Positions 31,767 to 35,882 of a stretch of DNA of 36,839 bases are shown piece after piece (positions within the stretch are counted from its first letter, which is position 1; each line of letters opens with the position of its first letter). The DNA is taken from NCBI GenBank assembly GCA_017881445.1, contig JADGQX010000014.1, forward strand, positions 1-36,839. Reading direction: 5' to 3'. A model generated the notes under the pieces. It worked only from the letters and a program-made list of their open reading frames with translations, searched no databases and was not told where the DNA came from. The position numbers and the translations under genes were made by a program. Source of the DNA: Gemmatimonadota bacterium. GTDB taxonomy: Bacteria; Gemmatimonadota; Gemmatimonadetes; Longimicrobiales; RSA9.

Positions 31767-33209
31767 ATTTCCAGTGCCCCGCGTCCCGCGCCGCTGGAGC
31801 TGGCGCCGCCCCCCGCCGTGCGCGACATCGCCCGGCGGCTGGAGGGGGCGGGCTTTCCCACCTTCGCCGTGGGCGGCGCCGTGCGCGACGCCCTGCTGGG
31901 ACTCCCGGCCCAGGACTGGGACCTGGCCACGCGGGCGCGGCCGCAGGAGGTGCGGCGGCTCTTCCGGCGCACGGTCCCCATCGGCATCGAGCACGGCACC
32001 GTGGGCGTGCACGGCAAGGACGGCGTGCTCTACGAGGTCACGACCTTCCGGCGCGACGTCGAGACCTTCGGCCGACACGCCACGGTCGAGTTCGCGGACA
32101 GCATCGAAGACGACCTCTCCCGCCGCGACTTCACCATCAACGCCCTGGCGTGGGACCCGGCCACGGGTGAGCTGCGCGACCCCTACGGCGGCCTGGACGA
32201 CCTCGCAGCCGGCGTGCTGCGCACCGTCGGGGGGGCGGAGGAGCGCTTCGCCGAGGACTACCTGCGGGTCCTGCGTGCGCTGCGCTTCGCCGGCCAGTTC
32301 CGGCTGCGCATCGACGGCGACAGCTGGAGCGCGCTCACCGGGGCCACTCCCCAGCTGGCACTGCTCTCCGCCGAGCGAGTGCGCGAGGAACTGCTCAAGG
32401 TCCTGTCCAAGTCCCGCTGCGCCTCCGCCGCGCTCTCCCTCTACGCGGCATCGGGCGTGCTGGGGGCGCTCTACCCCGAGCTGGAGCGGCTCGTCGAGAT
32501 GGCGGCGGAAGTGGGCTCGGGGTCGGGGTTGGGCTCGGGCTCGGGTGGTGACGACGTCTGGGCCCTGACGCTGCGGGCCGTGGACGTCATTCCGCCCTCG
32601 CGGCCGCTGCTGCGCCTGGCCGCGCTGCTGCACGCCACCGGCATGCCCGCGGCCCGCACCCGCGACCTGCGCGGCGGCTGGCGCTACACCGGCCACGAGC
32701 AGGCCGGCGCCCGCGTCGCGCAAGAGCTGCTCCGGCGCCTCAAGGCGTCCAATGCAGAGATCGAGCGCGTGGGTCAGCTGGTGCGGCACCAGTCGGACCT
32801 CTTCCCCCCGGACTCCCGCTCGCCCGTGGTCCGGCGCTGGATGCTGGCCGTCGGCCGTGACCTGCTGGACGACCTCTGGCGCCTGCGCTTCGCCCTGGCG
32901 CGCGCCCGCGACCCCGCCAACGCCGCGCTGCCGCCCGACCTGCTGGAGCGCTGGCGCATGGCGCGCTTCATCCGCCGCCAGCACCCGCCCCTCTCGGTCG
33001 CCGAGCTGGACATCGACGGTGGCGACCTGAAGGAGCTCGGCCTCCGTCCCGGCCCCCGCTTCGGCGAGATCCTGCGCGCACTGCTCGAGCAGGTGCTGGA
33101 CGACCCGGCGCTCAATACGAGAGAGAAGCTGCTGGATCTGGCGCGACAGATCGTGGACGTGAGCGGGAACGTTGACGTGCAGCCTCAGCCTCGGCCTCGC
33201 CGTCCATGA
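31767..33209 (+). CDS. cca: CCA tRNA nucleotidyltransferase / poly(A) polymerase family
   Basis: Class II nucleotidyltransferase completing or repairing tRNA 3' CCA ends. FPTFAVGGAVRDALLGLPAQ then DWDLAT gives the catalytic GG...DxD. RRDFTINALAWDPATGELRD and FAEDYLRVLRALRFAGQF are the nucleotide-selection motifs. A divergent HD-like region follows (LLHATG, GHEQAGARVAQEL). About 480 residues. Start is uncertain: GGAG-N7-ATT at 31767 fits best; an ATG at 31677 overlaps nadE by 86 bases and gives an Arg-rich non-family N-terminus; a GTG at 31818 is the shortest option. A GSGSGLGSGSGG linker (32514-32543) is a hexamer tract. Confidence 0.88.
   Translation: MSSAPRPAPLELAPPPAVRDIARRLEGAGFPTFAVGGAVRDALLGLPAQDWDLATRARPQEVRRLFRRTVPIGIEHGTVGVHGKDGVLYEVTTFRRDVETFGRHATVEFADSIEDDLSRRDFTINALAWDPATGELRDPYGGLDDLAAGVLRTVGGAEERFAEDYLRVLRALRFAGQFRLRIDGDSWSALTGATPQLALLSAERVREELLKVLSKSRCASAALSLYAASGVLGALYPELERLVEMAAEVGSGSGLGSGSGGDDVWALTLRAVDVIPPSRPLLRLAALLHATGMPAARTRDLRGGWRYTGHEQAGARVAQELLRRLKASNAEIERVGQLVRHQSDLFPPDSRSPVVRRWMLAVGRDLLDDLWRLRFALARARDPANAALPPDLLERWRMARFIRRQHPPLSVAELDIDGGDLKELGLRPGPRFGEILRALLEQVLDDPALNTREKLLDLARQIVDVSGNVDVQPQPRPRRP
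32514..32543. repeat. Hexanucleotide tract inside cca
   Basis: Five units (GGCTCG, GGGTCG, GGGTTG, GGCTCG, GGCTCG) in frame, giving a Gly-Ser linker between the head/neck and the HD-like part. Confidence 0.75.
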
Positions 33210-33931
33210 TTTCCAACCTGCTGTACGCGATCCTGGCCGGCGGCATGGACATCCTGGGCGGCGCGCTGGTGATCACACCGGCGCGGCGGAGCAAGCGGTT
33301 CCTGGCGTTCCTGGTGGCGTTCGGCGCGGGGTTCATGCTTGCCGTGGCGCTGCTGGAGATGCTGCCGGACGCGCTGGTGGCGCGGGGCGGGGTCACGGCG
33401 GTGCTGATCGGCTACCTGCTGGTGCACCTGACGCAGCACACGCTCACACCCCACTTCCACTTCGGCGAGGAGACCCACGCCCACGAGATGGTGTCCCGCG
33501 GGATCGGCGGCTGGGCGCTGGTGGGACTGCTGCCGCACTCGTTCTTCGATGGCGTCGCCATATCGAGCGCCTTCCTGGCCGGCCCGAAACTGGGGATCCT
33601 GGTCTTCTCCGCCGTGGCGCTGCACAAGGTGCCGGAGGGCGTGTCGCTGGTGAGCATCATGCTGGCCAGCGGCAACACGGCGCGGCGGGCGGTGCTGGCC
33701 GTCTGCTCCATCGCCCTGGCGACCGTGATCGGCGCCGTGGTCACACCGACGCTCGACCTGCTGGCGCGCTACGGCCTGGCCCTCTCCGCCGGCGTCACCA
33801 TCTACGTGGCGGCGTCCAACCTGATCCCCGAGTCTCAGCGCGAACGCGAGCACGGCTGGTTCGTCCCGGGTGGGGTCTTCCTGGGCGTCGTCGCCTTCTA
33901 CGTCATCCGCTTGCTGCTGCCGGCCGGCTGA
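33206..33931 (+). CDS. ZIP-family metal transporter
   Basis: Divalent metal (Zn/Fe type) transporter, 241 residues, about eight membrane segments. VAFGAGFMLAVALLEMLPDA is the ZIP helix IV-type block. A His-rich loop (HLTQHTLTPHFHFGEETHAH) lies between segments. LLPHSFFDGVAISSAFLAG and VALHKVPEGVSLVSIMLASG carry the paired metal-site motifs H-x3-D-G and H-K-x-P-E-G. GVTIYVAASNLIPESQRERE ends the core. Its ATG overlaps the cca stop (ATGA). Last gene of the alaS run; the GxxExxY element begins 30 bases after it on the other strand. Confidence 0.93.
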   Translation: MISNLLYAILAGGMDILGGALVITPARRSKRFLAFLVAFGAGFMLAVALLEMLPDALVARGGVTAVLIGYLLVHLTQHTLTPHFHFGEETHAHEMVSRGIGGWALVGLLPHSFFDGVAISSAFLAGPKLGILVFSAVALHKVPEGVSLVSIMLASGNTARRAVLAVCSIALATVIGAVVTPTLDLLARYGLALSAGVTIYVAASNLIPESQREREHGWFVPGGVFLGVVAFYVIRLLLPAG

Positions 33932-33958
33932 CGCCGAGCTTCCGCGGCGTCCTCCGAT

Positions 33959-34381
33959 TCACATCGTTTTCGCACGAAGACACGAAGGAGCGAAGCGTCC
34001 GACGTAGCGGTTGACGATCCGGTGAATGCCGCTCTTCATCGTTGCATCGCCGAAATTGAGCAGGAAACCCAACCGCAAGTCCAGCAATCGGATGTAGGTA
34101 TGCACCTGCTTCCAGTGCGCCGGCACGAACGTCTCGACGGATTTGATCTCGACGACGATCAGGCCCTCCACCAGCAGGTCGAGCCGAAACGCTTCGTTGA
34201 ACTGGACGCCGTCGATAACCACGTCAACAGGCCGCTGACGCTCCACCGTGAGCCCTCGGCGCTCGAGCTCCCGGGCAAGAAGGACCTCGTACACGGATTC
34301 CAGAAGGCCCGGCCCGGTTCGCTTGTGCACCTTGACGGCAGCATCGACGATCTCGCGTGCAACCGTCTCGATCCGGTCCAT
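33959..34381 (-). CDS. GxxExxY protein (PD-(D/E)XK nuclease fold)
   Basis: 140 residues of TIGR04256/PF13366. The name motif is G25-LL-E28-SV-Y31 in KRTGPGLLESVYEVLLAREL. The nuclease-fold residues are Asp68 (FRLDLLVEG) and Glu78-x-Lys80 (LIVVEIKSVE), followed by the usual HTYIRLLDLRLGFLLNFG and IHRIVNR. Biochemical role is unknown in the family. The gene is enclosed by 34-base inverted arms. The right arm supplies AAGGAGGG nine bases before ATG 34381. The left arm encodes the last ~13 residues (RFAPSCLRAKTM) beyond the normal family end, and the TGA lies at its outer edge. The gene therefore belongs to the repeat unit. Confidence 0.9.
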   Translation of the reverse strand: MDRIETVAREIVDAAVKVHKRTGPGLLESVYEVLLARELERRGLTVERQRPVDVVIDGVQFNEAFRLDLLVEGLIVVEIKSVETFVPAHWKQVHTYIRLLDLRLGFLLNFGDATMKSGIHRIVNRYVGRFAPSCLRAKTM

Positions 34382-34421
34382 TCGGGTCTTCCCTCCTTCG
34401 TTGCTTCGTGCGAAAACGATG
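33962..34421. mobile_element. Inverted-repeat unit enclosing the GxxExxY gene
   Basis: Left arm 33962-33995 and right arm 34421-34388 (reversed) agree at 31 of 34 positions. Both begin CATCGTTTTCGCACGAAG and continue ACGAAGGAG-GAAG, i.e. tandem CACGAAG-like heptamers. The 460-base unit contains only the GxxExxY gene. It sits in the gap between the ZIP gene and rarA. No target-site duplication was seen. Termini match the gene-less element at 19.45-19.67 kb. Confidence 0.65.
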
Positions 34422-34499
34422 GGAGGTGGCCAAGGGCGCTGCCATAGGCCGGTGAGCCAGAAGCCGTGCCGGATAGGCCGTGACGGTGTAGTATCTGCC

Positions 34500-35882
34500 A
34501 TGCCCAAGATGAACCGACCCCACCCCTCCCGGCGCGACGCCGGCGCCACGCTCTTCTCGGCGGCATCCGCCCGCGCGACGCAGCCGCTGGCGGCGCGCAT
34601 GCGGCCGCGCTCGCTCTCCGAGTTCGTGGGCCAGGAGCACATCCTCGGGGAAGGCAAGGCGCTGCGCGTGGCCATCGAGCGCGGCAACGTCAGCTCGATC
34701 ATCCTCTGGGGGCCGCCGGGCAGCGGGAAGACCACGCTCGGCCACGTGATCGCGGAAACGGCGGAGCGTGTGTTCGTGCCCTTCAGCGCCGTGAGCGAGG
34801 GCGTGCCGCGCATCCGCCAGATCGCCGACGAGGCCCGGGAGCGCCTGGCGACGGGCGGCCGCGGCTCCATCCTCTTCATCGACGAGATCCATCGCCTGAA
34901 CAAGTCGCAGCAGGACTCGCTGCTGCCGCACGTGGAGCAGGGCGTCTTCACCCTGGTGGGCGCCACCACCGAGGCGCCCAGCTTCGAGATCAACGGCGCG
35001 CTGCTCTCGCGCTGCCGCGTCTTCGTGCTCAATCCCCTGTCGGGCGACGACATCCTGTCGCTGCTCCGGCGATCCCTCGGGGATGCCGAGCGCGGGCTGG
35101 CTGCCCTGAGGCTGGAGGTGGACGAGGACGCGCTCCGGCTCATGGCCGATGAAGCCGACGGCGACGCCCGGCGCGGGCTCACGGTCCTGGAGGCCTCCGC
35201 CGATGCCGTGGGAGAGGGCGGGCACGTGACGGTGGACGTCGCCCGGGAGGCCATGCAGCTCCGCTTCGCGCGCTACGACAAGTCGGGCGAGGAGCACTTC
35301 AACCTGCTCTCGGCCTATCACAAGTCGCTGCGCGGCAGCGATCCGCAGGGTGCGCTCTACTGGATGGCCCGCATGATCGACGCGGGCGAGGACCCCATGG
35401 TGCTGTTCCGGCGGGGCATTGCCATGGCGGCGGAGGACATCGGCACGGCCGACCCGCAGGCGCTCATGCTGGCGGTCGCCGCCCGCGACGCCTTCCACAT
35501 GCTGGGCGAGCCCGAGGGCTACCTGCCGCTGGCCCAGATGACCGTGTACCTGGCCACCGCCCCCAAATCGAATGCCTCCGCCCGCGGCCTCTGGTCCTCC
35601 ATGGCCGCCGCCAAGGAGACGCCCGCCGCGCCGGTCCCGCTCCACATCCGCAACGCCCCCACGAAGATGCATAAGGAGCTGGGCTACCACACCGGCTACA
35701 AGTACGCCCACGAGTTCGAGGGCGCCTACGTGCCCCAGGACTACCTGCCCGATCAGCTGAGCGACGCCGTCTTCTACGAGCCGGGCGACCTCGGCTTCGA
35801 ACGCAAGATCCGGGAGCGGATGGAGTACTGGCGGAAGGTCCGGGAGGAAGCGGGGGCCGAGGGCGCGGACGACGCCGGGTGA
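34500..35882 (+). CDS. rarA: Replication-associated recombination protein RarA (MgsA)
   Basis: AAA+ clamp-loader-like ATPase acting at stalled forks; 460 residues. LAARMRPRSLSEFVGQEHIL is the start of the core; Walker A GPPGSGKTT is at 71-79; Walker B ILFIDEIHRLNKSQQD is near 123-138; sensor 1 is GATTEAPSFEIN with the Arg finger following in LLSRCRVF. The MgsA C-terminal tetramerisation domain carries YDKSGEEHFNLLSAYHKSLR, GSDPQGALYWMARMI and the ending YVPQDYLPDQL. A TAGTAT hexamer at 34489-34494 would put the transcript start at about the ATG, so translation may be leaderless; no Shine-Dalgarno is visible. Confidence 0.95.
   Translation: MPKMNRPHPSRRDAGATLFSAASARATQPLAARMRPRSLSEFVGQEHILGEGKALRVAIERGNVSSIILWGPPGSGKTTLGHVIAETAERVFVPFSAVSEGVPRIRQIADEARERLATGGRGSILFIDEIHRLNKSQQDSLLPHVEQGVFTLVGATTEAPSFEINGALLSRCRVFVLNPLSGDDILSLLRRSLGDAERGLAALRLEVDEDALRLMADEADGDARRGLTVLEASADAVGEGGHVTVDVAREAMQLRFARYDKSGEEHFNLLSAYHKSLRGSDPQGALYWMARMIDAGEDPMVLFRRGIAMAAEDIGTADPQALMLAVAARDAFHMLGEPEGYLPLAQMTVYLATAPKSNASARGLWSSMAAAKETPAAPVPLHIRNAPTKMHKELGYHTGYKYAHEFEGAYVPQDYLPDQLSDAVFYEPGDLGFERKIRERMEYWRKVREEAGAEGADDAG

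Follow-up and report, generated by a model that had tools for sequence, protein, structure and literature searches.

The window, as we call the whole 36,839-nt stretch of Gemmatimonadota DNA that was analyzed, carries on its minus strand a GxxExxY gene of 140 codons (33959–34381; ATG at 34381, TGA at 33959–33961) encoding a protein of 140 aa. The gene is tightly enclosed by two inverted arms of 37 nt each, which are 89% complementary and separated by 392 nt. The left arm (33959–33995; TCACATCGTTTTCGCACGAAGACACGAAGGAGCGAAG) lies at the 3' end of the gene, encodes its last ~11 residues (FAPSCLRAKTM), and has the TGA at its outermost edge. The right arm (34388–34424; reverse complement, TCCCATCGTTTTCGCACGAAGCAACGAAGGAGGGAAG) lies at the 5' end and contains, 9 nt before the ATG, the Shine-Dalgarno sequence AAGGAGGG (34391–34398, minus strand), read directly from the sequence. 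This arrangement agrees with an earlier note on the same DNA, which had described 34-nt inverted arms (31/34) around a single GxxExxY gene, a right arm with the ribosome binding site, and a left arm encoding ~13 C-terminal residues and the stop codon at its outer edge. The arms scored 54, against a maximum of 37 among 2,805 intervals of the same spacing elsewhere in the window, and a chance origin is therefore excluded. As context only, the left neighbor is a ZIP-family metal transporter gene (33206–33931, plus strand; PF02535, E 2e-25) whose end lies 27 nt beyond the left arm, and the right neighbor is a RarA/MgsA-type AAA ATPase gene (34500–35882, plus strand; PF12002, E 5e-63, and NCBIfam AAA/RarA matches) that starts 75 nt outside the right arm. 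An Rfam scan of positions 33000–35500 gave no match to a known RNA family.

The protein was assigned to the GxxExxY family (TIGR04256/PF13366) by profile scores above the curated cut-offs (TIGR04256, E 3e-37, 127 bits, cut-off 35; PF13366, E 1e-36, 126 bits, cut-off 22), by the motif, and by a D...ExK active site. The AlphaFold model (pLDDT 90.9) predicts an alpha-alpha-beta-beta-beta-alpha-beta PD-(D/E)XK fold in which the catalytic D68, E78, and K80 are present; these three residues, and G25-x-x-E28-x-x-Y31, are invariant in 86 homologs. A search of the PDB returned no sequence relative of the protein. The nearest solved folds, all of them weak matches (best E 0.016), include AdnAB, Cas4 SSO0001, MGME1, lambda exonuclease, and a Holliday junction resolvase, and the matches to Cas4 profiles were weak as well (E 0.005–0.02). 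The protein thus shares its fold class with the Cas4/RecB-like nucleases, but differs from them in that no fold match is better than weak, the PDB holds no sequence relative, and the immediate neighbors in the window are not cas genes.

Inverted arms (score of at least 30) were found at 85% of 80 GxxExxY loci from about 15 phyla, a set whose loci are only partly independent and in which sphingomonads make up a sizeable share, compared with 1.5% of 937 random intervals and 1.3% of 394 neighboring ORFs. With a threshold of 40, the values were 61% of the GxxExxY loci and 0% of the neighboring ORFs. Chance inverted repeats are ruled out by the window, random-interval, and neighboring-ORF controls, and an absence of arms around most GxxExxY genes, an outcome that the earlier note had named as counting against its reading, was not what we observed. 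None of the 12 loci scoring below 30 belongs to a sphingomonad, and the flanks are truncated in two of them. Arms do not characterize the whole family, since the divergent members L048, L049, and L056 are without them. All six PF13366 genes of the window's genome have tight inverted arms, and most GxxExxY genes of its relatives are likewise armed.

The arm sequences of these six copies all differ (CGCAGAGCCACGGAG, CACAGAGG, CGCCGAGGACGCCGAGG, CACGAAGACACGAAGG, CGCGAAGAACGCGAAGG, and CACACGAAG). Arms are built from copy-specific units of ~8 nt (for example, CGCGGAGA, CGCAAAGG, and CACGAAGA), and both arms of one copy match. The unit follows the form N-C-R-C-N-R-A-G, about 8 nt long and repeated ~3 times, with TCNC or ACC at the outer end, and a period of 8 was seen in 31 of the 33 periodic arms of the broad set. 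Because the arms vary by copy, a universal CATCGTTT-CACGAAG consensus was rejected; it is specific to the class of the window copy. A single change suffices to place the arm grammar (ACC vs. TCNC) on the protein tree, a fit that stands for clustering and not for a proven history, as few columns underlie the tree and it contains open forks. Other layouts were also seen: the divergent GxxExxY gene L039 has inverted arms of a very different unit (GGGAGAT/GGGGGAT), and L040, L042, L047, L053, L115, L132, and L153 have whole small hairpins at one or both gene ends instead of split arms, which is nearer to the RAYT-REP layout.

That the arms supply the ribosome binding site and the stop codon is true of the window and holds only in part as a rule: among 50 testable loci, a Shine-Dalgarno-like core lies inside the arm in 35, and the stop codon falls before the right arm in 25, inside it in eight, and beyond it in 17. 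The 35 cores, like the weak Cas4-like profile matches, would suit a purely regulatory role, in which the arms would be only terminator or processing hairpins controlling expression of a nuclease whose true target lies elsewhere, for example, in defense. We regard this role as highly improbable, since it leaves unexplained the hundreds of gene-less copies described below, their gene dependence, and the type switching; a defense system was rejected, as no PADLOC family rose above noise or threshold.

Searching the window's genome with a single 18-mer turned up about 15 palindromes of 180–210 nt that contain no gene. Their outer arms are class-specific and common to gene-bearing copies: the window copy shares CATCGTTTTCGCACGAAG with them, and L006 shares GGGCGTCCCAACGCTCATCTCACACGAAG. 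At the centers of L008–L026, an A/T-rich core (for example, TTGTTGTTTAACAACAA) is kept inside the otherwise GC-rich interior of gene-less elements. The copies in genome G049 are near-perfect hairpins of about 62 nt (DNA fold z −8.4). Across 61 relatives, a generic arm pattern gave a median of 64 matches in genomes with the gene (maximum 1,634, in G049) and at most five in genomes without it (MWU p 3.8e-8; within families f1+f3, p 0.0014), and a reversed-pattern control gave about 0 matches. Arms equally common without the gene, which the earlier note had also listed against itself, were therefore not found. The dispersed arms of gene-bearing genomes are mostly gene-less hairpins. Few or no matches were obtained in the gene-bearing genomes G003, G011, G019, G035, G043, G044, and G051, in part because the grammar of their arms is a different one, which the generic counting pattern misses.

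The GxxExxY gene is present once in each of 11 sphingomonad genomes and, in many sphingomonads, is located between fabD and fabG. In 15 close Sphingomonas species, four types of the gene occur, each with arms to match (alpha, TCGCGCAGAGGCGCAGAG; beta, TCACGCGGAGACGCGGAG; gamma, TCACGCGAAGGCGCAAAG; and delta, which resembles alpha). At these 15 fabD-fabG loci, protein identity is 0.946 within an arm type vs. 0.749 between types, while that of fabG is the same across the comparisons (0.916 within and 0.919 between); for L296 and L297, fabG is 95.7% identical and the GxxExxY proteins 77%. On both sides, the sequence switches between types no more than about 25 nt from the arms. The arms switch together with the protein type, and this could be in part joint inheritance of a linked cassette and not recognition. 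The dispersed arms are moderately enriched for the resident type, at a fraction of 0.468 vs. 0.320 under label shuffling (p 0.0001), computed with the gene's own arms left out. Within types, dN/dS is 0.07, and the gene combines an intact active site with purifying selection. Junctions of fabD and fabG without the gene exist in other species, as candidate empty sites of the gene-bearing cassette, but are diverged; two of them (L313 and L323) have other palindromic repeats, such as GTCATCCCGGCGAAAGCCGGGATC, at the same intergenic site.

When the left and right arm motifs were located independently of one another, free arm positions were 0.867 identical within a locus vs. 0.482 when shuffled across loci (maximum of 5,000 shuffles, 0.585). 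For the orthologous fabD-fabG copies, the corresponding identities were 0.913 within a locus and 0.656 across loci, and the two arms of a copy thus evolve together. At orthologous gene-less sites of genomes G063 and G064 (about 91% identical), the arm types differ in roughly half of the pairs examined; both arms had changed in every one of these, and the interior between the replaced arms is significantly homologous in three of the four tested. Overall, the data best show rewriting of the arms in place and exchange of the gene plus arms as one cassette, rather than mobility, which they do not prove. Palindromes are often nested, one arm type flanking another on each side, and in L248, L243, L238, L237, L241, and L259–L261 the offset is about 30–50 nt per side, as if new pairs had been added around old elements.

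Nested elements would also be produced by a classical transposon with MITEs, in which a GxxExxY transposase would move any DNA between arms and the gene-less hairpins would be non-autonomous deletion derivatives. Such a transposon would likewise account for class-specific arms, outer part included, that are common to gene-bearing and gene-less copies, and for copy numbers as high as that of G049. We nevertheless consider it unlikely, because the Sphingomonas genomes have just one gene copy each, in many at a syntenic site, because most gene-less sites examined are common to G063 and G064, and because no target-site duplication was evident at the gene-less sites of these two genomes and no clean empty site was found at the six where it was sought. 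Three of these six candidates are rearranged sites; elements specific to G064 aligned with a half-arm remnant in G063 (L249/L286) or with a different, decayed palindrome (L232/L285), or were the same element with other arms (L241/L284). Plasmid copies provided just six weak matches for this comparison. The terminal inverted repeats common to autonomous and non-autonomous copies are a likeness to IS elements and MITEs, but the GxxExxY system differs from them in having no known transposase, arms rewritten in place, and, in sphingomonads, one gene copy at a fixed locus. For the "compact self-mobilising or repeat-maintaining element" proposed earlier, these results lend no support to self-mobilization, the gene lying at conserved syntenic sites and its gene-less copies being mostly common to related species.

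Two known host processes, slippage and quasipalindrome correction, would yield identical repeated-unit arms without a dedicated enzyme. Under an explanation built on them, the palindromes would be spread and homogenized by the host through slippage, quasipalindrome correction, and gene conversion, and the nuclease gene would merely have landed in one and been inherited along with it; that genes of an unrelated family, TIGR02436, are enclosed by similar arms speaks for this. It is quite unlikely, however, as within families the number of arms follows the presence of the gene, the type of the resident gene is overrepresented among dispersed arms, and the association extends over about 15 phyla with an arm grammar specific to the protein clade. 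The TIGR02436 genes (four-helix-bundle, S23p/IVS family; L057–L086 in relatives) are bounded by inverted short-unit arrays, and 89% of the genes score at least 30, compared with 3% of controls. Their units of about 7 nt, otherwise given as 6–7 nt, differ per copy (AGTGCCC, GGTTATC, GGGAATA, AGTCCTA, and GGCTCGC), and the two gene families co-occur by genome (Fisher 8e-8; within f1+f3, p 0.035).

The 23S rRNA IVS elements, whose S23p protein is also a four-helix bundle (TIGR02436; PMC4990558), resemble the GxxExxY copies in being very short, with complementary ends, one small ORF, and no assigned function, and TIGR02436 genes that stand alone in the same genomes likewise carry inverted arms of short repeats that differ by copy. 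The protein and the arms are, however, non-homologous, and the window copy lies outside rRNA. It was not classed as an IVS, its flanks being a ZIP transporter and RarA, its protein PDDEXK_3, and Rfam giving no match.

Another parallel is the REPtron (PMC3686654, PMC3116915, PMC8266576). The RAYT (TnpAREP) gene is flanked by inverted REP/REPIN palindromes, gene-less copies are dispersed, the number of repeats follows the cognate gene, and orthologous genes at syntenic sites of related strains have different classes of repeat on their flanks (PMC3686654). The GxxExxY genes share the inverted flanking repeats, the gene-dependent dispersed copies, and the different repeat classes at syntenic genes, a likeness that is a functional analogy only. 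RAYT is an IS200/IS605-like HUH Y1 tyrosine enzyme, whereas Pfam and NCBIfam show only PDDEXK_3/GxxExxY here, with a PD-(D/E)XK fold; REP repeats have a GTAG/GTGG-type tetranucleotide followed by a palindrome, whereas GxxExxY arms begin with TCNC or ACC and consist of tandem units of about 8 nt; and the GxxExxY system spans about 15 phyla. Membership in REP/RAYT was rejected on enzyme type and repeat tag, and, as the enzyme and repeats are unrelated, the system is an analog of REP/RAYT and not a member. The earlier analogy with RAYT and REP is well supported by the arms, their dispersal, and the co-switching. A literature search, with preprints and most subscription journals outside its scope, found no earlier description of GxxExxY genes with these arms.

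Because the arms are general, the dispersed arms depend on the gene, protein and arm types switch together, and both arms are rewritten jointly, the gene and its arms make up a single unit with REPtron-like behavior. The earlier note had likewise seen gene and arms as one unit, a view borne out by near-universal arms, gene-dependent dispersed copies, and the switching of types, so that its interpretation is, overall, partly supported. Probably, then, the gene with its arms represents the "autonomous," gene-bearing copy in a REP-like system that consists of a small PD-(D/E)XK nuclease and its cognate palindromes. We infer that the GxxExxY protein recognizes palindromes composed of the short repeated unit of its own type; its cognate sites would be the arms that flank the gene and, elsewhere in the genome, tens to hundreds of hairpins without a gene. 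The nuclease would most likely nick or cut these hairpins upon extrusion, for example, at replication forks, and template-switching repair or gene conversion could then copy the resident arm type onto other palindromes. The same copying would keep both arms of each copy alike, while the gene cassette would stay at fixed loci, with protein and arms swapped as a unit between related strains.

In its strongest form, which we hold to be about evenly poised between right and wrong, this proposal would make the GxxExxY nucleases the enzymes dedicated to a second REP-like world of independent origin, with allele-specific palindromes, hundreds of them kept in trans, and both arms actively rewritten to the resident type. 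The link to the arms gives GxxExxY, a widespread family to which no function has been assigned, a testable substrate, for which the natural allele and arm types at fabD-fabG are a ready specificity panel. The tie to GxxExxY would also explain the hairpin repeats of CGCAGAG/CACGAAG units across many phyla. The REP/RAYT way of life, with one nuclease gene, many cognate palindromes, and allelic specificity types, may thus have arisen with an unrelated enzyme fold.
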